34,591 nt of DNA from Gammaproteobacteria bacterium (lineage in GTDB: Bacteria > Pseudomonadota > Gammaproteobacteria > GCA-001735895), in NCBI GenBank assembly GCA_026989015.1, contig JALSKD010000007.1, positions 1 through 34,591 on the forward strand, in the 5' to 3' direction. Below, in pieces: positions 5,396 through 20,688 of this stretch; the first letter of the stretch is position 1, and each line of letters starts with the position of its first letter. The position numbers and the translations under genes were made by a program. A model generated the notes under the pieces. The model searched no databases, was not told where the DNA came from, and saw only the letters and a program-made list of their open reading frames with translations.

Positions 5396-5866
5396 ATGAA
5401 ACTGTCAACCAAGGGCCGCTACGCGGTCACCGCGATGATGGATATCGCTTTGCACGAGAAGGTCGGTCCGGTCACCCTGGCCGATATCTCCCAGTGTCAG
5501 GGCATTTCGCTGTCCTACCTTGAACAGCTGTTCTCCAAGTTGCGGCGCAATGGCCTGGTGCAGGGCGTGCGCGGCCCGGGCGGTGGCTACCGGCTGGCCA
5601 AGCCCGCCAGCGAGATCTCCGTCGCCGACATCATCGATGCGGTGGACGAGAAGATGGATCTGACCAAGTGCGGCGGCAAGGGCAACTGTGACGGTGGCTC
5701 GAAATGCCTGACCCACAAACTCTGGTACGATCTGACCTGCGATCTGCACCGCTTCCTGAGCGGGATTACGCTTGATCAGTACCTGAACCGACCCCATATC
5801 AACGAACTGGTAAAAAAACAGGACGAGCAGTATGGGCGATTCATCAATCGCCGTACCGCTGCCTGA
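5396..5866 (+). CDS. iscR: IscR, Fe-S-sensing Rrf2-family transcription regulator
   Basis: A 156-residue Rrf2-family repressor that senses Fe-S status and controls the isc operon. The N-terminal winged helix begins [11 protein letters not shown] and includes the [14 protein letters not shown] wing. The [2Fe-2S] ligands C92, C98, C104 and H107 fall at the same residue numbers as in E. coli IscR. A strong ribosome-binding sequence (GGAAGG) precedes the ATG. Two type 1-like operators and a sigma70 promoter lie directly upstream, supporting autoregulation. The iscS start lies 16 bases after the iscR stop. Confidence 0.97.
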
Positions 5867-5882
5867 CGGAGACATAAAACCC

Positions 5883-7106
5883 ATGAGCGACATGAGACTG
5901 CCCATTTATCTGGACTACAGTGCCACCACCCCGGTGGACGAGCGTGTTGCCGAAAAGATGGCCGGCTACCTGACCATCGACGGCAAGTTCGGTAACCCTG
6001 CCTCACGCAGCCACAAGTACGGCTGGGAAGCGGAAGAGGCGGTCGAGAATGCCCGCCAGCAGGTTGCCGACCTGATCAACGCCGACCCGCGCGAAATCGT
6101 CTGGACCAGCGGAGCGACCGAATCCGACAACCTGGCGATCAAGGGTGCCGCCCACTTCTATCACAAGAAGGGCAAGCACATCGTGACCGTCAAGACCGAG
6201 CACAAGGCGGTGCTGGACACCTGCCGCCAGCTCGAGCGCGAAGGTTTCGAAGTGACCTACCTCGATCCCATGGAAAACGGCCTGCTGGATCTGGATGCCT
6301 TGCGCGACGCCTTGCGCGACGACACCATTCTGGTCTCGGTGATGCATGTCAACAACGAGATCGGCGTGATTCAGGACATTGCACAGATCGGCGAGATTTG
6401 CCGTGAACGCAAGATCCTGTTCCATGTGGATGCGGCCCAGTCCGCCGGCAAGGTCGAGATCGACCTGCAGCAGCTCAAGGTGGACCTGATGTCCTTCTCC
6501 GGCCACAAAATCTACGGACCCAAGGGGATCGGCGCACTGTATGTACGCCGCAAGCCGCGGGTGCGCCTGGAAGCCCAGATGCACGGAGGCGGTCACGAGC
6601 GCGGCATGCGCTCCGGCACTCTGGCCACCCACCAGATCGTCGGCATGGGCGAGGCCTTCCGCATCGCTCGCGAGGAAATGGCCACCGAGAACGAGCGTAT
6701 CCGCATGCTGCGCGACCGGCTCTATGAAGGCCTCAAGGACATCGAGGAAGTCTATGTCAACGGCGACATGGAACACCGCATCGCCGGCAACCTGAACATC
6801 AGCTTCAACTATGTGGAAGGCGAATCGCTGATCATGGCGCTGCGCGATCTTGCGGTCTCCTCCGGTTCTGCCTGCACCTCGGCCAGCCTCGAGCCCTCCT
6901 ATGTGCTGCGTGCGCTGGGCCGCAACGACGAATTGGCGCACAGCTCGATCCGCTTTACGCTGGGCCGCTACACCACCATCGAGGAAGTGGACTACACCGT
7001 CGACCTGGTGAAGAAGGCAGTCGCCAAGCTGCGCGAACTCTCCCCGCTGTGGGACATGTACAAGGCCGGAATCGATCTGAATTCCGTCGAATGGGTCGCT
7101 CACTGA
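5883..7106 (+). CDS. iscS: IscS, cysteine desulfurase
   Basis: PLP-dependent desulfurase supplying sulfur for Fe-S clusters and other thiolation pathways. With the start at 5883 the protein has 407 residues; the PLP lysine is K209 in [10 protein letters not shown] and the catalytic cysteine is C331 in [20 protein letters not shown] at 5868-5873 is well placed for the 5883 ATG. The next ATG at 5892 starts [10 protein letters not shown] and would give K206 and C328, the E. coli numbering, but has poorer spacing, so the choice between the two is uncertain by three residues. A longer frame opening at 5832 inside iscR has no support. IscS lies between iscR and iscU in the usual order. Confidence 0.96.
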
Positions 7107-7140
7107 GCGCCCCGCAACCAGACAACAGAGGTAATACACC

Positions 7141-7542
7141 ATGGCTTACAGTGAAAAAGTACTCGACCATTACGAAAACCCGCGCAATGTCGGCACCATC
7201 GAGGAAGACGAGAATGTCGGCACCGGCATGGTCGGCGCACCGGCCTGCGGCGATGTCATGAAGCTGCAGATCAAGGTGGGTGACAACGGCGTCATCGAAG
7301 ACGCCAAGTTCAAGACCTACGGCTGTGGCAGCGCCATCGCCTCCAGCTCGCTGGTGACCGAATGGGTCAAGGGCAAGACCCTCGACGAAGCGGCGCAGAT
7401 CAAGAACACCCAGATCGCCGAGGAACTGGCCCTGCCGCCGGTCAAGATCCACTGCTCGGTATTGGCCGAAGACGCCATTGCCGCCGCGATCGAAGACTAC
7501 AAGAAAAAACAGGAACAGGGTCAGCAGAAGAAGGCCTCCTGA
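7141..7542 (+). CDS. iscU: IscU, Fe-S cluster scaffold
   Basis: Scaffold on which IscS-derived sulfur and iron are assembled before transfer. The 133-residue protein has the three cluster cysteines in PACGD, YGCGSA and KIHCSV, with the conserved Asp after the first. The LPPVK peptide recognised by the HscA chaperone is intact just before the third cysteine. The C-terminus has a lysine/glutamine-rich tail (KKKQEQGQQKK). A strong intrinsic terminator begins about 27 bases after the stop, so the transcript ends here; iscA, hscB, hscA, fdx and iscX do not follow. Confidence 0.97.
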   Translation: MAYSEKVLDHYENPRNVGTIEEDENVGTGMVGAPACGDVMKLQIKVGDNGVIEDAKFKTYGCGSAIASSSLVTEWVKGKTLDEAAQIKNTQIAEELALPPVKIHCSVLAEDAIAAAIEDYKKKQEQGQQKKAS

Positions 7543-9840: not shown

Positions 9841-10038
9841 TTACTTCTTGACCCACTTGTCGAAGTTGTCGGTGTTCTTGGCCAGGCCGTCTTCACGACC
9901 GGCGCTATAGGCTTCGGTCACGCGCTGCTCTTCACGCTCGGGGTGGTGCAGGTAACCGCCCTGCCAGCCAATGATGTACTCTTCGTCGACACCCATTGAC
10001 TCCATCTTCTCGGTTGCATCGCGGTAAAACTGATCCAT
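9841..10038 (-). CDS. Small hypothetical protein, 65 residues
   Basis: A charged, soluble small protein with no cysteine, signal or membrane segment. It contains IIGWQGGYLHHPEREEQR in the middle and ends DNFDKWVKK. I do not recognise the family with certainty. Expression is well supported: GAGGAG lies 7 bases before the ATG, and a strong intrinsic terminator follows, so it appears to be a monocistronic unit. It is divergent from the Sel1/moxR operon. Confidence 0.75.
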   Translation of the reverse strand: MDQFYRDATEKMESMGVDEEYIIGWQGGYLHHPEREEQRVTEAYSAGREDGLAKNTDNFDKWVKK

Positions 10039-10155: not shown

Positions 10156-10252
10156 AATATCTCTATTGGGGGGATACGCCCATCGGGGATATACGCAAGA
10201 AGGTTGCAAATGCTTATGATTCAGGGCTTTCCAGACAACCGTGGAACCGCGA

Positions 10253-10678
10253 ATGACCACCGACGCAGACATGAATTTTACCAGCGGCATGGCCGCCTTT
10301 GAAGCCAAGGAATTTGCCCGCGCGATGCAGTTCCTGCTGCCGTTCGCCGAAAAGGGCGACCCGGATGCCCAGCACAGGGTGGCCATCATGTATCAGAACG
10401 GCCTGGGGCATGCCCGCAACGAGGCCGAGGCCTTGCGCTGGATGACCGCCGCCGCCGAGCAGGGCCATGCAGTGGCCCAGCACGGGCTGGGTTTCATGTA
10501 CATGGAGGGCGACTGCGTCGAGAAAAACGGCGAGAAGGCCATCGAATGGTTCAGCAAGGCCGCCGATCAGGGACTGGTCGGCTCGCTGACCACGCTGGCG
10601 ATGATCTACGACGAAGGCACGCTGGTGCCGCAGGACAAGGAAAAGGCTCAGGAGCTCTACAAGAGGGCCGGTTTCTGA
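10253..10678 (+). CDS. Sel1-like repeat (TPR-type) protein
   Basis: A 141-residue protein made of about three Sel1-like repeats, visible as DAQHRVAIMYQNGLG, AVAQHGLGFMYMEGD and GSLTTLAMIYDEGT, each followed by a helix such as EALRWMTAAAEQG. Such repeats are protein-interaction scaffolds. There is no signal peptide, so it is cytoplasmic. The ATG at 10253 has GGAA 7 bases upstream; a GTG at 10241 would add four residues. Its TGA overlaps the moxR ATG by one base, so it is coupled to the MoxR/VWA genes and might act as an adaptor for that chaperone system. Confidence 0.85.
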   Translation: MTTDADMNFTSGMAAFEAKEFARAMQFLLPFAEKGDPDAQHRVAIMYQNGLGHARNEAEALRWMTAAAEQGHAVAQHGLGFMYMEGDCVEKNGEKAIEWFSKAADQGLVGSLTTLAMIYDEGTLVPQDKEKAQELYKRAGF

Positions 10679-11718
10679 TGCGTCCGCTGCACCTGAGCCG
10701 TGTGCTCAACGAAGAACTCCAGGGCACGCTCAAGGGCCACCACACTCCGGTCATGCTGTGGGGACCGCCCGGTGTCGGCAAGTCGCAGATCGTCATGCAG
10801 ATCGGCGAGCAGCACGACATTCCGGTGATCGACATCCGTTTGTCGCAGATGGAACCTTCGGACCTGCGCGGCATCCCCTTCAAGCAGGACGGGCGGGTTG
10901 AATGGGCGACGCCGTCGATCCTGCCCGATGCCGGCCGCCACGGCGAGACTGGCATTCTGTTTCTCGACGAAATCAATTCCGCCGCGCCCTCGGTATCGGC
11001 CGCCGCCTACCAGTTGATTCTCGATCGCCGCCTCGGCGACTATCAGGTGCCGGAAGGCTGGGCCATCTTCGCCGCCGGCAACCGCCAGGGCGACCGCGGC
11101 GTCACCTATGCCATGCCGGCCCCGCTGGCCAATCGCTTCTCCCATTACGAGATCGACCTCAATCTCGATGACTGGGTGGCCTGGGCCTATGCCCACGGCA
11201 TCGACGAGCGGATCATCGGCTTTCTGCGTTTCCGGCCGGAACTGCTGTTCGATTTCGATCCGGCCCACAATCCGGTGGCCTTTCCGTCGCCCCGTTCCTG
11301 GGAATTCGCCCACCGTGCCCTGCAGAAATTCGGCGAACAGCCGGATCTGCTGCTCGGCTCCCTGCAGGCCTGTGTCGGCCCAGCCGCCGGCATCGAGTGT
11401 CATGCGTTTATCGAGAGCCTGGACCAGATGCCGGACCTGGACCGTATCCTGTCCGGAGAGGACATCAATGCGCCGGAGGAGATCGACCTGCAGTATGCCG
11501 TCGCCTCGGCACTGGTGGGCCGTGCCATCCGTGCCCAGGGCACGGCCGAGGCGGCCACCATCTACGGTCACATACTCAACTACGCGGGGCATTTCCCGCA
11601 GCGCGAGATGGGAGTGATGCTGGTCTCCGACATGCACCGTGCCATCGGCAATGACCTGTTCGAGGTGCCCGAATTCGCCGACTGGGCCGACTCCATCGCC
11701 GACCTGATTCTCTCCTGA
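10678..11718 (+). CDS. MoxR-family AAA+ ATPase
   Basis: A 346-residue AAA+ ATPase of the MoxR group, which act as chaperones or activators together with VWA-domain partners. Walker A is GPPGVGKS at residues 29-36 and Walker B is ILFLDEIN at 93-100. A sensor-like AAGNRQGD segment and the arginine-containing APLANRFSHYEID stretch follow. It starts at the ATG overlapping the Sel1 stop and is followed after 14 bases by the HExxH/VWA protein, the expected partner. It is not CbbQ or NorQ by context, since no Rubisco or NO reductase genes are present. Confidence 0.92.
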   Translation: MRPLHLSRVLNEELQGTLKGHHTPVMLWGPPGVGKSQIVMQIGEQHDIPVIDIRLSQMEPSDLRGIPFKQDGRVEWATPSILPDAGRHGETGILFLDEINSAAPSVSAAAYQLILDRRLGDYQVPEGWAIFAAGNRQGDRGVTYAMPAPLANRFSHYEIDLNLDDWVAWAYAHGIDERIIGFLRFRPELLFDFDPAHNPVAFPSPRSWEFAHRALQKFGEQPDLLLGSLQACVGPAAGIECHAFIESLDQMPDLDRILSGEDINAPEEIDLQYAVASALVGRAIRAQGTAEAATIYGHILNYAGHFPQREMGVMLVSDMHRAIGNDLFEVPEFADWADSIADLILS

Positions 11719-11732
11719 AAACGGGGCGCGGC

Positions 11733-13115
11733 ATGAGCGAAGAGACGCCGGATTTCGATCTCGAAGCCATCGAGAACAAGCTCAGCGCCGCGCGCACCCG
11801 GCTGATCCTCGACAAGCCCTTTCTCGGCGCGCTGGTGCTGCGCCTGCCGATGAAGGCCGCCGATCCGGCCTGGTGTGCCACGACCGGCACCGATGCCCGA
11901 AACTTCTACTACAACCCGGCCTACGCCGAGGAATTGCGTCCGGAGGAGGCGCAGTTCGTGCTGGCCCACGAGGCGTTGCATTGTGCGCTGTCCCATTTCG
12001 CGCGGCGCGGTCACCGCGTCAAACACCGCTGGGACATCGCCTGCGACTATGCCATCAACGGCATCCTCGTTGACGAAGGCCTGATTCCGCCGCCCGGCGC
12101 ACTGATCCTCGAGGAATACAAGGGCATGACCGCCGAGGAGATCTACCCGATGATCGAGGACAACGATCATTCGGAGACCCTCGATCAGCACCTCTACGAC
12201 AAGCAGGACGATCCGGCCGAGGGCGGGCAGGATCGGCAGCGCAACCCGCTGGACGAGCAGGACAATCCCTCCGGCAATCCCGGCGGCGAAGGCCAGCGTC
12301 AGTCGCCGCAGCAACAGGGGCAGGGCGAGGAGACGCCACCGCCCGATCAGCCACCCCAGCGCGAGGAGGACGGCGACGGCGGCCGCCGGCAACAGCCCGA
12401 CCCAGAGCGCGAAGGTGCCCAGGGCAGCGAGGAGCGACCCGACAGCGGTCTGGCGCCGCCTCCCGAACCCCTGTCGGAAACGGAAAAGGAAGCGCTCAGC
12501 GTACAATGGCAGCAGCGTCTGGCGGGGGCCGCGCAACTGGCGCAGCAGGCCGGCAAGCTGGGCGAGGGCATGGCGCGGATGATCGACTTTTTCCTGCAGC
12601 CGACGCTGCCCTGGCGCGCCCTGCTGGCGCGTTTCATGAACAGCCTGTCGCGTGACGACTACAGCTACACCCGGCCTTCCGGCCGACGCGGTGATCCGGC
12701 CATCTTTCCCAGTCTGCGCAACCCGCAGATGGATCTGGTGGTCGCGGTCGATGTCAGTGGCTCCATTCATCAGGACGAGCTGAACGAATTCATCGGCGAG
12801 ATCGATGCGCTCAAGGCACAGGTACGCGCTCGGGTGACCCTGCTCACCGTCGATGCAGAAATCACCGGCGACAGCCCCTGGCGTTTCGAAGCCTGGGAAC
12901 ACTGCCAGTTGCCGGAGCGCATCATCGGTGGCGGCGGCACCGACTTCCGCCCGGTGTTCGACTGGGTGACGCGGCACGACATGAACCCCGACCTGCTGAT
13001 CTACTTTACCGATGCCGATGGCCCGTTCCCCGATCACCCGCCCGCCTGGCCGGTGGTGTGGCTGGTCAAGGGACGCAAGCCGGTGCCCTGGGGCCAGCGT
13101 ATCCAGCTCAACTGA
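11733..13115 (+). CDS. DUF2201-type protein: metallopeptidase-like domain plus VWA-like domain
   Basis: A 460-residue protein in three parts. Residues 1-150 hold a zinc-peptidase signature HEALH (H79, E80, H83) in FVLAHEALHCALSH. Residues about 160-250 are a low-complexity linker rich in Q, P, E, D, G and R. The C-terminal part is a VWA-like domain with a MIDAS motif DVSGS (D340, S342, S344), a later GGGGTDFRPV and TDADG. This matches the putative metallopeptidase plus VWA-like family often paired with MoxR ATPases. It follows moxR by 14 bases and precedes the DsrS-like gene by 12. Whether it cleaves protein or only scaffolds metal-dependent assembly is unknown. Confidence 0.88.
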   Translation: MSEETPDFDLEAIENKLSAARTRLILDKPFLGALVLRLPMKAADPAWCATTGTDARNFYYNPAYAEELRPEEAQFVLAHEALHCALSHFARRGHRVKHRWDIACDYAINGILVDEGLIPPPGALILEEYKGMTAEEIYPMIEDNDHSETLDQHLYDKQDDPAEGGQDRQRNPLDEQDNPSGNPGGEGQRQSPQQQGQGEETPPPDQPPQREEDGDGGRRQQPDPEREGAQGSEERPDSGLAPPPEPLSETEKEALSVQWQQRLAGAAQLAQQAGKLGEGMARMIDFFLQPTLPWRALLARFMNSLSRDDYSYTRPSGRRGDPAIFPSLRNPQMDLVVAVDVSGSIHQDELNEFIGEIDALKAQVRARVTLLTVDAEITGDSPWRFEAWEHCQLPERIIGGGGTDFRPVFDWVTRHDMNPDLLIYFTDADGPFPDHPPAWPVVWLVKGRKPVPWGQRIQLN

Positions 13116-13127
13116 CGACCACCCGAC

Positions 13128-14240
13128 ATGCCACTTTCCAACGAAGACAATCTGCGGCTCAATGTGCTGCTGGCGCAAGACCTCAAGGCCGTGCGCATCG
13201 ATGAATCGAAAATGATCGTCCATGCGCTCACCGGCAAGGGGGAGGTCAGCATTCAGCTCAACCCGACACTGAAGGACGACAAGTACATACGCCTGGTCAA
13301 GGAACTGCTGTCGAACAAGATCATGGGCTCACCTGGCGGTTATCCGGTGTACATCAAGCGCTGGACGCGGATGGGGCAGGAACGCCGCGAGGAAAGCCTG
13401 GCGCAATTGTTGTTGCTGGGCGAGGAGGAAGCCGTGGTGGCGGTGGTCCATGCGCCGCAATTGACCCCGGACATCGCCCGTCATGCCTGGTGGGCCTACC
13501 CGTCGGCCGACAATGCACGGCGCCTGCTGGAGAAGCAGGAAGTCGCGGAATCGGATCTGGCCCGTGAACTGGCCGAGTTTCTGCTCGAATTCCTGCCCTT
13601 CGAAGTGGAACACCGCGACATGATCGATTCGGTACGCCTGTGCCTCGCTCCGCGCCTGCTCACCGACGATGAAATCGAAGACCTCTGGAAGCGTGCCCGG
13701 CGCAAGCAGAGCCTGTATGTGGGCTTTCTGCACAGCATGCCCGATGAGCTGCCGGAACAGGCGCCGCCCCACCCGGAGCATGCCGCACTCGAAGAGCGGT
13801 TGCGGCCGCTCGCCGACAACCCCTACGCACGGCAACTGCTGCGCCTGCTGTCGGCGCCGGGCCAGATGTATCTGACCACCGTCAATCGGGTCATCGACAA
13901 GGCCGCCAGCCAGGACAGCATCGTCTCGCTGTTTCAGGCGCTGGATGCCCACGCCGCCGATCTGCCACTCTGCGACTGCCATCCACGCGAGATTGCCGAA
14001 GCCGAGGCACGCGCCGATTACTGGCTGGAGCAGGGCGCCGACGCTCGGCTTCAGGCCCTGCTTGAAGCCGCTCCCGAACAGCGCGGCCGCATCCGCTCGA
14101 TGCTGGTGCTGGCGCAAATGGGCGAACCGGCGCTGAACCCCATCTTCGGGCTGACCGATGCCATCGGCAGCGTGATGCGCAAGAAACTCAAGCCCCTCAC
14201 CGACCCCTTGCAGGCGCACATCAAACGCTTGCAGACCTGA
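13128..14240 (+). CDS. dsrS: DsrS-like protein of dissimilatory sulfur metabolism
   Basis: A 370-residue soluble protein with no motif I can assign to a catalytic family. The N-terminal NLRLNVLLAQDLKAVRIDESK, then SPGGYPVYIKRWTRMGQ and ARHAWWAYPSADNARRLL blocks agree with my memory of DsrS, the last gene of the dsr cluster in Allochromatium-type sulfur oxidisers, whose role is unresolved. No dsrAB or dsrEFH is in view, so if the name is right the gene is detached from the main cluster. It is cotranscribed with the MoxR/VWA genes (12-base gap) and is followed by cysG, whose product siroheme is the cofactor of DsrAB. The identification rests on recall without an alignment and is only moderately sure. 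Confidence 0.55.
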   Translation: MPLSNEDNLRLNVLLAQDLKAVRIDESKMIVHALTGKGEVSIQLNPTLKDDKYIRLVKELLSNKIMGSPGGYPVYIKRWTRMGQERREESLAQLLLLGEEEAVVAVVHAPQLTPDIARHAWWAYPSADNARRLLEKQEVAESDLARELAEFLLEFLPFEVEHRDMIDSVRLCLAPRLLTDDEIEDLWKRARRKQSLYVGFLHSMPDELPEQAPPHPEHAALEERLRPLADNPYARQLLRLLSAPGQMYLTTVNRVIDKAASQDSIVSLFQALDAHAADLPLCDCHPREIAEAEARADYWLEQGADARLQALLEAAPEQRGRIRSMLVLAQMGEPALNPIFGLTDAIGSVMRKKLKPLTDPLQAHIKRLQT

Positions 14241-14306: not shown

Positions 14307-15707
14307 ATGAATTATCTCCCCATCTTCTACGACCTCCGGGGCAAGAGCACCCGAGTCATCGGCGGCGGCGGCATCGCCGCGCGCAAGGCCGATCTGCTGC
14401 TCGAGGCGGGGGCACGGGTCGTCGTCATTGCGCCGCAGACCCATGGCGAGATGACCGAGATGGTCCGCGAGGGTCGGGTCGACTGGACGCAGCGGGAATA
14501 CCGCGAAGGGGATCTGGACGACGCGGTGCTGGTCATCGCTGCCACCGATGATCGCCAAGTCAACGAACGCATCGCCGCCGTTGCGGCCAAGCAACATATT
14601 CCCTGCAATGTGGTGGACAACCCCGAACTGTGCAGTTTCATCATGCCCTCCATCATCAACCGCGATCCGGTGCAGATCGCCGTCTCCACCGGCGGTGCGT
14701 CGCCGGTACTGGCGCGGCTGATCCGCACCCGTCTCGAAAGCTGTACCCCTTCGGCCTACGGCAAGCTGGCCAGGCTGGTGGAGCAGTACCGGGATCGCGT
14801 CAAGGCCACCTTCGGCCGGGTGGAGGAACGGCGCAAGTTCTGGGAATCCATCCTTGAAGGCCCGGTGGCCGAGCATGTCTTTGCCGGCCGTGACGCCGAC
14901 GCACGCGAGCTGCTGGAGCGGCTGATCGACGAGGCCGAAGCCGATCCCAAATACCAGGGCGAAGTCTATCTGGTCGGCGCCGGGCCGGGTGATCCGGACC
15001 TGCTGACCTTCCGCGCCCTGCGGCTGATGCAGAAAGCCGATGTCATCGTCTACGACCGGCTGGTCTCCAAACCGATCATGGACCTGGTGCGGCGCGATGC
15101 CGAACGCATCTACGCCGGCAAGGAGCGCGCCAACCACGCCATCCCACAGGAGAACATCAACCAGTTGCTGGTGCGTTTGGCGAAGGAAGGCAAGCGTGTG
15201 CTCCGGCTCAAGGGCGGCGACAATTTCATCTTCGGCCGCGGCGGTGAGGAAATCGCCGAACTGATCGACGAGGGCGTGCCGTTTCAGGTCGTCCCCGGCA
15301 TCACCGCCGCCTCCGGTTGCACCACCTACGCCGGCATCCCGCTGACCCATCGAGACTATGCCCAGGCCTGCATCTTCGTTACCGGCCACCTCAAGGACGG
15401 TACCGCCGACCTCAACTGGGACATGCTCTCCCATGCCCATCAGACTGTCGTCTTCTACATGGGGCTGAACAATGTGGCCGCCATCTGCGACAACCTCAAG
15501 GCCCACGGCCGCGACGCATCCACCCCCGCCGCGCTGATTGAAAAGGGCACCACGCCGGAGCAGCGGGTGTTCATCGGCAACCTCGACAACCTCGCCGATC
15601 TGGTGGCCGAAAACCGGGTCAAGGCGCCGACCCTGATCGTCGTTGGCGAGGTGGTCGAACTGCACAAGAAACTGGCCTGGTTCAAGCCGGGCGAGGAAAT
15701 CAAGTAA
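14307..15707 (+). CDS. cysG: CysG, trifunctional siroheme synthase
   Basis: A 466-residue fusion enzyme converting uroporphyrinogen III to siroheme. Residues 1 to about 150 are the precorrin-2 dehydrogenase/sirohydrochlorin ferrochelatase domain, with the NAD-binding VIGGGGIAARKADLLLEAGA region and CNVVDNPELCSF. Residues from about 215 form the SUMT methyltransferase domain, with VYLVGAGPGDPDLLT, the RLKGGDNFIFGRGGEE loop and VVPGITAASGC. Length matches E. coli CysG (457). It has its own promoter, 66 bases after the DsrS-like gene. In a sulfur oxidiser it would supply siroheme for sulfite reductases of the Dsr type as well as for assimilation. Confidence 0.96.
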   Translation: MNYLPIFYDLRGKSTRVIGGGGIAARKADLLLEAGARVVVIAPQTHGEMTEMVREGRVDWTQREYREGDLDDAVLVIAATDDRQVNERIAAVAAKQHIPCNVVDNPELCSFIMPSIINRDPVQIAVSTGGASPVLARLIRTRLESCTPSAYGKLARLVEQYRDRVKATFGRVEERRKFWESILEGPVAEHVFAGRDADARELLERLIDEAEADPKYQGEVYLVGAGPGDPDLLTFRALRLMQKADVIVYDRLVSKPIMDLVRRDAERIYAGKERANHAIPQENINQLLVRLAKEGKRVLRLKGGDNFIFGRGGEEIAELIDEGVPFQVVPGITAASGCTTYAGIPLTHRDYAQACIFVTGHLKDGTADLNWDMLSHAHQTVVFYMGLNNVAAICDNLKAHGRDASTPAALIEKGTTPEQRVFIGNLDNLADLVAENRVKAPTLIVVGEVVELHKKLAWFKPGEEIK

Positions 15708-15811: not shown

Positions 15812-16978
15812 TCAACCCCGGTCGGGAAGCGCGGTCTCACCGAAGCGGGCGAGTGTCATCGTTTGATTGTGCAGCCCCTCATCGGCGTCATTTTCCACGG
15901 AACAGATCTCACCATAGGAATAGAAGCCGGAGATCCTGGCTGCGGAAGGCAGATTTCTGGCCACCGACAGGACTTCGTTTCTGGTGTTGTCTTCCAGCAC
16001 CAGCCGGCGTCCCACGCAGCTGACACATAGGGTGAATTCGTCTCCATCCACAATTGTGTCCGAAGCAAGACCGGCAGCGGCTTCACCGGCGGATTCGACC
16101 AGTGAATCATCGATGGCCCTGGCAAAGGCTATTTTCGAGCCTTGCTCGATATCCCCGAAGAAGGTCATGCTTCCATCGGCCTCGTTGACCGAGGCAACCG
16201 TGCGAATCACCTTGATGGAACCGTCCTCATTGAGTACCGCGAAGGGAACATACAATCCGGAACCCGGGAGGTTGCTCGCGTGCTTCTCTCCGATATACAT
16301 CTTGTAGAAAAACAATGCCTTCTCATCATTCAGGGTGTATACGACATTTTTCTTGGATCGTGTAACGATCTTGGGTGGGCCGTAGGGCTTCCATCCTGCT
16401 CCATAGCCGGTTTTGACATAAGCGTATTCCCCGTAAATTCCGATCGCCACGACCCGTCCGGAGCCTACGGTATCGTTGTGCATGACAACGCTTTCCTTGA
16501 AGTCGAAGCCATCACCGGCCAGACCGCCGGTCAAAACGGCATCAGGGGCCACTGACCGAATACCGCGGACGAACTCGGAGCCGTTCAATTTCAAGCCGTC
16601 ACCCAGTATCAGCATGCCTTTGAGGTGAGGCAGTTCCGACAAGGTGCTGGCAACAGAAACGCCCACGGAATAAGACGCTTCCATGCTGGGCACGGCAAGG
16701 GAAAGAGCCTTTATCCGGCTTTTTCGCCAGTGCAGAGCGGCGATATGGATGCCGCTGTCATCCACTCCCCTGGGGTTGATCTGGCCGGATGTACTGCACC
16801 CTATGATTTCTGCGTGCGGATACCTCTTGCGCAGCACATCGTAGAGTTTTTTGCGGGTGAACTGTTTTCTCTGGGCAAAAACGAGAACCAGATCGGCGTC
16901 TTCGTTTTTGCTCTTGATCACGCCAGGCAATGACCATAACAACGGGTTTCCCGGCATCATCGTTTGCTCAACAATCAC
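15812..16978 (-). CDS. FIST-domain sensor-type protein
   Basis: A 388-residue protein with FIST_N and FIST_C character: ADLVLVFAQRKQFTR, IIGCSTSGQI, VLTGGLAGDGFDF and the C-terminal SCVGRRLVLEDNTRNEV plus ISGFYSYGEI blocks are characteristic. FIST domains are thought to bind small ligands such as amino acids and usually sit beside or within histidine kinases, chemoreceptors or diguanylate cyclases; no such partner is adjacent here. Base composition is clearly less GC-rich than the neighbours, suggesting recent acquisition. It is convergent with cysG and followed upstream by a 440-base non-coding stretch. Confidence 0.9.
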   Translation of the reverse strand: MIVEQTMMPGNPLLWSLPGVIKSKNEDADLVLVFAQRKQFTRKKLYDVLRKRYPHAEIIGCSTSGQINPRGVDDSGIHIAALHWRKSRIKALSLAVPSMEASYSVGVSVASTLSELPHLKGMLILGDGLKLNGSEFVRGIRSVAPDAVLTGGLAGDGFDFKESVVMHNDTVGSGRVVAIGIYGEYAYVKTGYGAGWKPYGPPKIVTRSKKNVVYTLNDEKALFFYKMYIGEKHASNLPGSGLYVPFAVLNEDGSIKVIRTVASVNEADGSMTFFGDIEQGSKIAFARAIDDSLVESAGEAAAGLASDTIVDGDEFTLCVSCVGRRLVLEDNTRNEVLSVARNLPSAARISGFYSYGEICSVENDADEGLHNQTMTLARFGETALPDRG

Positions 16979-19119: not shown

Positions 19120-20688
19120 ATGTTTGAACTGACCTGTCCCGGTCGCCAGTGCGTCAAGAATGACGTGCTTTCAGGCCTGACCGTCGCCCTGGCCCTGGTG
19201 CCGGAAGCCGTGGCCTTTGCCTTCGTCGCCGGAGTCGAGCCGCTGGTAGGCCTCTATGGCGCCTTCATGATGGGGTTGATCACTGCGCTCATCGGCGGCC
19301 GCCCGGGCATGATATCCGGGGCCACCGGCGCCATGGCGGTGGTGATGGTATCGCTGGTCACTGCCTACGGCGTAGAGTATCTGTTCGCGGCAGTGATCCT
19401 CACCGGGGTGATCCAGATCGGCGCCGGCCTGCTGCGCCTGGGCAAGTTCATCCGGCTGGTGCCCTATCCGGTGATGCTCGGCTTCGTCAACGGACTGGCG
19501 ATCGTCATCTTTCTTGCACAGCTGGGGCAGTTTCAGACCACCGACGCCGCGGGCCAGACGGTGTGGCTGAACGGTCAACAACTGGGCGTGATGCTGGCGC
19601 TGATCGCCTTGACGATGGCCATCATCCAGTTTCTGCCGCGCTTTACCACGGCCATACCGGCTTCGCTGGCCGCGATCGGAACGGTGACGCTGGTGGCCAT
19701 CGGTCTCGATGCCGTATTCGATTTCGGCACCCGCTCGGTGGTCGATGTGTTGCGCGACATGGCCCAGGATCCGCAGGCCACCATTGCCGGCGGCCTTCCG
19801 GAATTCCGTTTGCCACAGATTCCCTGGACCTGGCAGACGCTGGAAATCATCCTGCCCTACAGCCTGGTGCTTGCCGGTGTCGGGCTGATCGAGTCGCTGC
19901 TGACCCTGAACCTGATCGACGAGCTGACCGAAACCCGCGGCCACGGCAACCGTGAATGCGTGGGGCAGGGTGTGGCCAACAGTGTCAATGGCCTGTTTGG
20001 CGGCATGGGGGGCTGTGCGATGATCGGCCAGTCGCTGATCAACATCAATTCCGGCGGCCGCGGCCGGCTGTCGGGGATCAGCGCCGCGCTGTTCCTGCTC
20101 GCCTTCATCCTCTTCGGCTCGGGGCTGATCGAGCGGATTCCGGTGGCGGCGCTGGTCGGGGTGATGTTCATGGTGGTGCTCGGCACCTTCGAATGGGCCA
20201 CCTTCCGCATGATCGGCAAGGTGCCGAAATCGGATATCCTGATCACCGTGCTGGTGGCGGCGGTGACGGTGATTTCCGATCTGGCGATCGCGGTCATCGT
20301 CGGTGTCATCGTCTCCGCGCTGGTGTTCGCCTGGGAGCATGCCAAGCAGATGAGGGCGCACAGCCACATCGACGAGAACGGCTGGAAGGTCTACGAACTC
20401 AACGGCCCGCTGTTCTTCGGTTCGGTGCATGCCTTCAACCGTCTGTTCGACCCGAAGAATGATCCGCAGGATGTGGTCATCGATTTCTACGATTCGCGGG
20501 TGGCGGATCACTCCGGCATCGAGGCCATCGACAGCCTGGCGGAGCGCTATCAGCGCGCCGGAAAACGCTTGCATCTGAAGCACCTGAGCGAGGAATGCAA
20601 GCAGTTGCTGGACAAGGCAGGGGACTTGGTGGAGGTCAACCGCCTGGAAGACCCCACCTACCATGTCGCCGACGACCGGCTGGACTGA
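19120..20688 (+). CDS. SulP-family inorganic anion transporter with STAS domain
   Basis: A 522-residue membrane protein. Residues about 15-400 hold ten or more hydrophobic helices, beginning with the SulP landmark [21 protein letters not shown] and including [12 protein letters not shown] and [15 protein letters not shown]. Residues about 425-510 form a cytoplasmic STAS domain ([35 protein letters not shown]). Members carry sulfate, bicarbonate or other anions; the short loops and the GGCAMIGQS motif are typical of bacterial members, but the substrate cannot be read from sequence. It has its own candidate promoter and is convergent with the FAH-family gene, only two bases apart. Confidence 0.93.

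Follow-up and report, generated by a model that had tools for sequence, protein, structure and literature searches.

MoxR-type AAA+ ATPases that act with a partner carrying a von Willebrand factor A (VWA) domain provide the described systems closest to the one reported here. NorQ-NorD is described as inserting iron into nitric oxide reductase, and NorD as consisting of an N domain, a linker and a VWA domain (PMC13036017, PMC9976466); in CbbQ-CbbO, the RuBisCO activase, the metal-ion-dependent adhesion site (MIDAS) of CbbO is stated to bind an acidic residue of its RuBisCO client (PMC4660213). A further point of comparison is the dsr operon of Allochromatium vinosum, given as dsrABEFHCMKLJOPNRS (Alvin_1251-1265) with dsrS as its last gene (PMC3368242), Alvin_1265 being listed as dsrS (PMC10892978). 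The function of dsrS was stated to be unresolved in 2011, and the gene was assigned an additional promoter of its own (PMC3368242). Here we describe a run of four genes on the + strand, at 10253-14240 of a 34,591-nucleotide stretch from a gammaproteobacterium (GenBank assembly GCA_026989015.1, contig JALSKD010000007.1, positions 1 to 34,591; the whole stretch is called the window below), which encodes in order a Sel1-repeat protein, a MoxR AAA+ ATPase, a DUF2201 protein with HExxH and VWA motifs, and DsrS. In our view the genes probably specify a protein-remodelling machine of the MoxR-VWA type that is devoted to oxidative Dsr metabolism and in which DsrS is an obligate third partner.

The four-gene run and the identity of DsrS

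The Sel1-repeat protein (10253..10678, +, 141 aa) contains three repeats, matches Pfam Sel1 at E=1.1e-29 and is probably an interaction scaffold. Its start was placed at ATG 10253, with an alternative GTG at 10241, and its stop overlaps the start of the next gene by 1 base (TGATG). That gene encodes the MoxR-type AAA+ ATPase (10678..11718, +, 346 aa; Pfam AAA_5, E=4.5e-11), the putative motor of the set, whose Walker A sequence GPPGVGKS lies at 10762..10785 (residues 29-36). A spacer of 14 bases separates its stop (11718) from the ATG (11733) of the DUF2201 protein (11733..13115, +, 460 aa), a putative adaptor that matches Pfam DUF2201_N at E=2.1e-46 and the DUF2201 VWA domain at E=1.4e-24. 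It carries an HEALH motif at 11967..11981 (residues 79-83) and the MIDAS sequence DVSGS at 12750..12764 (residues 340-344, together with T403 and D427). The last gene (13128..14240, +, 370 aa; no Pfam match) begins at ATG 13128, 12 bases after the VWA stop at 13115. Searches of the MoxR, DUF2201 and last proteins of the window against NCBIfam models gave no match. A sequence-only reading of the window had proposed four genes with these junctions, comprising a Sel1 gene, a MoxR with intact Walker motifs and a partner with both HEALH and MIDAS motifs, and the open reading frame coordinates, domain matches and ortholog conservation agree with it on each point. The run is repeated in many other genomes, so that its layout is beyond chance.

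The same reading had taken the product of 13128-14240 for DsrS, and had named a mismatch here as grounds for rejecting its proposal; by position and homology the product is DsrS. In two other loci (L071 and L280) a homolog of the fourth protein is encoded immediately downstream of dsrR and closes the series dsrABEFHCMKLJOPNR, in the place where the A. vinosum operon has dsrS; the window protein is 42% identical to the L071 homolog. In such loci dsrA was named by TIGR02064, and the other dsr genes were named from gene order and from tblastn between loci. A 2011 paper on dsr regulation is said to report secondary promoters for dsrC and dsrS. In the host genome DsrS is single-copy, represented by the window gene only; the dsr cluster, from dsrA to dsrR, is on another contig, and the stretches of that contig that were fetched contain no DsrS match. 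Judged by gene order, the host dsrS is displaced from the dsr cluster and is now joined to the MoxR-VWA pair. Sulfurifustis and Sulfuricaulis are likewise described as having dsrS outside the cluster (PMC5024460).

The AlphaFold2 model of DsrS is a helical-repeat structure with a small N-terminal β element (predicted local distance difference test, pLDDT, 90.3). DsrS is therefore predicted with confidence to be a helical solenoid, a shape suited to protein binding. Comparison of the model with PDB structures gave no match at E<=0.001, and a DsrS profile found nothing convincing among PDB sequences. Structurally, the model came closest to importin- and armadillo-type solenoids (Z 6.9, 196 residues), a likeness that may reflect a common helical-repeat arrangement only.

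Association of the set with the Dsr pathway

The association of the set with the Dsr pathway is strongly supported by gene order and genome content. Two loci of one family (L271 and L272, family f43) have the order dsrABEFHCMKLJOPNR-MoxR-VWA-DsrS on one strand, and a third (L273) has MoxR-VWA-DsrS-dsrA. The trio and the dsr cluster share a contig in L282 and L068; in L283, Sel1-DsrS is close to dsrA and MoxR some 500 kb distant. A survey of neighbours covered the best 80 of 416 confirmed loci, all with proteobacterial titles (Thiohalobacter, Thiogranum, Chromatiales, Ectothiorhodospiraceae and other Gammaproteobacteria, for example). Within it, 51 loci have at least 4.5 kb of sequence upstream of DsrS; 30 of them have MoxR no more than 4 kb upstream, and 44 have Sel1 no more than 5.5 kb upstream.

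Co-occurrence was analysed in a class sample of 369 gammaproteobacterial genomes, drawn evenly, with presence cut-offs of E<=1e-50 for MoxR and E<=1e-60 for dsrA. MoxR was found in 107 genomes, DsrS in 106 and dsrA in 117. Both MoxR and DsrS are present in 101 genomes, MoxR alone in 6, DsrS alone in 5 and neither in 257. For DsrS and dsrA the corresponding counts are 96 with both, 10 with DsrS alone, 21 with dsrA alone and 242 with neither, and for MoxR and dsrA they are 95, 12 (MoxR alone), 22 (dsrA alone) and 240. MoxR is present in 12 of the 252 dsrA-negative genomes as against 95 of the 117 that are dsrA-positive. The run is therefore not widespread in organisms without dsr genes, where a wide occurrence would have spoken against the sequence-only proposal of a role dedicated to this pathway; the dedication is borne out by co-occurrence across genomes, and the link is stronger than could be seen from the window.

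Of the 101 genomes with both genes, 62 have MoxR and DsrS on a single contig and 54 have them within 3 kb of each other; because only these 54 are so close, the co-occurrence holds without adjacency. DsrS and dsrA are on the same contig in 42 of 96 genomes and within 30 kb in 33, a comparison that is biased toward closeness by the need to share a contig, and their distance is hundreds of kb in several one-contig genomes. Fisher p-values on the joint counts ignore relatedness, which was taken into account with the help of a DsrA tree.

The DsrA tree had 80 rows, comprising 60 dsrA genes from positive genomes (second copies included) and 20 from the loci; 56 rows have both MoxR and DsrS, 18 have neither, and 3 and 3 have one of the two. 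It was made by a quick method that leaves 29 of 77 inner branches open, and contrasts were taken on starred branches. Each gene changes 17 times on this tree. In 11 independent contrasts, DsrS changes in the same direction as MoxR in 10.3 on average and in the opposite direction in 0.0 (median sign-test p 0.002).

A second sample consisted of 56 relatives besides the host. DsrS is present in 18 of them, all with strong MoxR and VWA matches, and 16 of these 18 have dsrA over the cut-off (the exceptions are G014 and G019). In all, 32 of the 56 have dsrA over the cut-off, of which 16, mostly from one genus of the host's family, have no DsrS; three relatives (G001, G021 and G030) have MoxR-VWA without DsrS. 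The MoxR-VWA pair of G021 (locus L285) is followed by a gene matching the oxygen-independent coproporphyrinogen oxidase hemN, a tetrapyrrole gene. In a phylum sample DsrS was found in 3 of 398 genomes, which shows only that it is rare there, dsrA not having been searched in that sample.

Conserved parts, proposed mechanism and alternatives

Walker A is found in all 65 MoxR orthologs, at least 97% of which keep both Walker A and Walker B (D97/E98). The window gene has an AAA+ core, intact Walker A and B and a VWA gene beside it, and this is the combination by which we assign it to MoxR; its PDB sequence relatives are Midasin (1.2e-10) and NorQ (0.0034). The MIDAS sequence DxSxS is present in all 67 DUF2201 proteins (a set that takes in the window protein and the second-copy paralogs of L286 and L287), and at least 97% share D340, S342, S344, T403 and D427. 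Of the 67, 56 retain HExxH, the window protein included, and 11 have lost it (RE, HD, KQ and QQ variants), among them L271 and L272, both operons within a dsr cluster. The HEALH peptidase motif pointed out in the sequence-only reading is thus real in the window protein but is not required, and because of these losses peptidase activity of the DUF2201 protein appears to be non-essential. Across the aligned orthologs, the motor and the MIDAS grip have been kept, but not the peptidase chemistry.

AlphaFold2 predicts for the DUF2201 protein a metallopeptidase-like N domain, a disordered linker, helices and a C-terminal VWA domain (pLDDT 79, with residues 160-234 mostly under 50). The VWA fold, at residues 330-460, gives Z values up to 12; by sequence, the protein has no match in PDB. 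We note that a second MoxR-VWA pair, with 61-63% identity to the window MoxR, occurs in L286 (G016), L287 (G005) and G023:C175. In L286 and L287 it is adjacent to response-regulator genes (in L287 also to a histidine-kinase domain), with no DsrS, and it is possible that these pairs are a sensor-linked branch of the same family.

A chaperone role is the best reading of the set, by analogy: ATP-driven remodelling of a client is suggested because this is how NorQD and CbbQO are understood. We infer that the products would form a complex in which MoxR would be an ATP-driven ring, the DUF2201 protein would dock in this ring and grip the client through the MIDAS of its VWA domain, and the metallopeptidase-like domain would serve as a binding module. 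The DsrS solenoid and the Sel1 protein would present or hold the client, and ATP hydrolysis would open it, so that a cofactor could be put in place or a dead-end state relieved. That the set matures an enzyme, which enzyme this might be, and that DsrS could be its specificity factor, as the sequence-only reading suggested, belong to the same conditional picture.

The first-choice client would be DsrAB, by siroheme or Fe-S loading or by reactivation; the gene behind DsrS is often that of the siroheme synthase CysG, and this proximity is the single observation that argues for the choice. In the window, CysG lies downstream of DsrS (14307..15707, +; NCBIfam PRK10637.1, 1.5e-194), and of the 54 loci having at least 3 kb downstream, 24 have a CysG on the same strand no more than 4.5 kb beyond DsrS. 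We put forward tentatively, as a specific form of the proposal, that MoxR, DUF2201-VWA, DsrS and Sel1 make up an ATP-driven cofactor-loading or reactivation machine for the reverse-acting DsrAB, in which DsrS might recognize the client and the former peptidase domain might grip it.

Several observations weigh against the proposed dedicated role or its siroheme version. DsrS occurs without a dsrA match in 10 of 106 genomes; dsrB is matched in full in two of these (G253 and G272) and in part in two more (G303 and G102), and in the other six (G162, G220, G318, G332, G350 and G351) neither dsrA nor dsrB was matched, one of the six being listed as 100% complete. Conversely, neither MoxR nor DsrS is present in 18 of the 117 dsrA-positive genomes, many of them listed at 95-100% completeness; incomplete assemblies can mimic joint absence where the genes are neighbours. 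In nine of the 18 (G003, G074, G137, G177, G228, G289, G320, G338 and G384) the dsr genes reach dsrN and dsrR. Since at least nine long oxidative dsr operons occur without the set, the pathway can run without it: the set is accessory and is not essential for Dsr. CysG is not a neighbour in 30 of the 54 loci, which weakens the siroheme reading. Finally, no DsrA residue tracks the set: in 48 pair-positive and 18 pair-negative rows, from which second copies of dsrA had been removed, none of 2432 residue tests survives correction, the best (p=1.9e-4 before correction) being at the trimmed C-terminus.

As a separate observation, five genomes of about 1.0-1.1 Mb (G074, G177, G289, G320 and G384) have a long oxidative dsr operon and no DsrS or MoxR-VWA pair.

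The leading alternative keeps the same machine and gives it a client elsewhere in sulfur oxidation, for example DsrMKJOP in the membrane, the proteins of sulfur transfer or those that mobilise globules; we regard it as possible, although on balance doubtful. The lack of any DsrA residue that tracks the set is in keeping with it, as are the accounts of NorQD acting on a membrane respiratory complex (PMC13036017) and of RavA-ViaA acting with fumarate reductase, likewise a membrane respiratory complex (PMC10585395). It also gains from the gene divergent from the run, which encodes an Alvin_2107-family globule sulfur oxidation protein (9841..10038, also given as 9844-10038, -, 65 aa; NCBIfam NF049856.1, 6.7e-29, 100 bits against a cut-off of 60) and likely has a regulatory region in common with the run. 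Of the 80 surveyed loci, 55 have this gene, and in each of them it lies upstream in divergent orientation; where 2.2 kb or more of upstream sequence is available (53 loci), 47 carry it. NCBIfam confirmed three additional copies. The frequent CysG adjacency, in contrast, favours a siroheme enzyme.

Much less likely is that the set serves some other enzyme whose genes only happen to accompany dsr in autotrophs that oxidize sulfur, such as RuBisCO or a siroheme nitrite or sulfite reductase. CbbQO systems are reported to associate with sulfur-oxidizing chemolithoautotrophs (PMC5437159), six DsrS genomes show neither dsrA nor dsrB, and CysG could serve NirB, for which the host has a candidate, an 835-aa frame that weakly matches the dsrA profile and is taken as NirB from its size. 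However, large frames with weak dsrA-profile matches are also present in genomes without the set (G037, G047 and G056, for example), and in L271 and L272 the trio is part of the dsr operon itself. RuBisCO adds no explanation once dsrA is known: in a 228-genome class sample, with RuBisCO as the one co-travelling marker compared and RuBisCO matches weaker than 1e-60 counted as absent, 53 of 67 genomes with dsrA and RuBisCO have the MoxR-DsrS pair, as do 7 of 10 with dsrA only, 4 of 42 with RuBisCO only and none of 109 with neither, and among dsrA-positive genomes RuBisCO makes no difference (53/67 vs 7/10, p=0.68). An identity of the set with the RuBisCO/CbbQO system is not supported, as the pair tracks dsrA and not RuBisCO.

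The least probable alternative takes the DUF2201 protein for a working metallopeptidase, and the set for an ATP-dependent protease or a system of regulatory proteolysis acting on Dsr or globule proteins; it has the Pfam label of putative metallopeptidase and the intact HExxH of most orthologs in its favour and is weakened by the loss of that motif in the remainder, with MIDAS invariant. In a comparison with MoxR-vWA conflict or defence systems, PADLOC gave weak matches only (E>=3e-4).

Other genes of the window are mentioned here for completeness. At 5396-7542, iscR-iscS-iscU are directly followed by a gene for a MauG-like di-haem peroxidase on the opposite strand, in place of the usual remaining isc genes. 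Close to the run are a FIST-domain protein (15812-16978, -), with a weak likeness, below the cut-off, to the nitric oxide sensor NosP, and a SulP-family transporter (19120-20688, +); SulP is again near the run in related genomes.

Comparison with known systems

If the DsrAB proposal is correct, no machine of this kind would have been put forward for a sulfite reductase before, to judge from the open-access literature. More generally, a sulfur-oxidation pathway would join the short list of those having a dedicated MoxR-VWA machine. DsrS, the last gene product of a textbook sulfur-oxidation operon, would gain a concrete and testable role through operon fusion and joint gain and loss, and the uncharacterized DUF2201 family would receive the first pathway assignment found in open-access literature. 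A search of that literature, which is no proof of absence, found nothing joining DsrS with MoxR or DUF2201 with MoxR, nor any function for MoxR-DUF2201 pairs. In the passages retrieved from it, mentions of MoxR with dissimilatory sulfite reductase concern other genes, and co-mentions of MoxR and Allochromatium are limited to RuBisCO reviews.

The set resembles NorQ-NorD in having a MoxR ATPase and a partner with an N domain, a linker and a C-terminal VWA domain with MIDAS, and in that one pathway's enzyme would be served. It differs in the N domain of the partner, which here is the metallopeptidase-like domain of DUF2201, in the presence of DsrS and Sel1, in the client pathway, and in a MoxR that is only distantly related. 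With CbbQ-CbbO it shares the MoxR motor and VWA adaptor, and an occurrence in sulfur oxidizers as described for that system (PMC5437159); the window set, however, tracks dsrA, its N domain is different, and DsrS has no counterpart there. The other MoxR-DUF2201 gene pairs, in three related genomes, have the same two-gene core, but no DsrS is beside them in the two pairs whose neighbours were scanned. The dsr operon of A. vinosum, finally, has DsrS as the window does; there dsrS is the last gene of the cluster, whereas here it stands beside MoxR-VWA.

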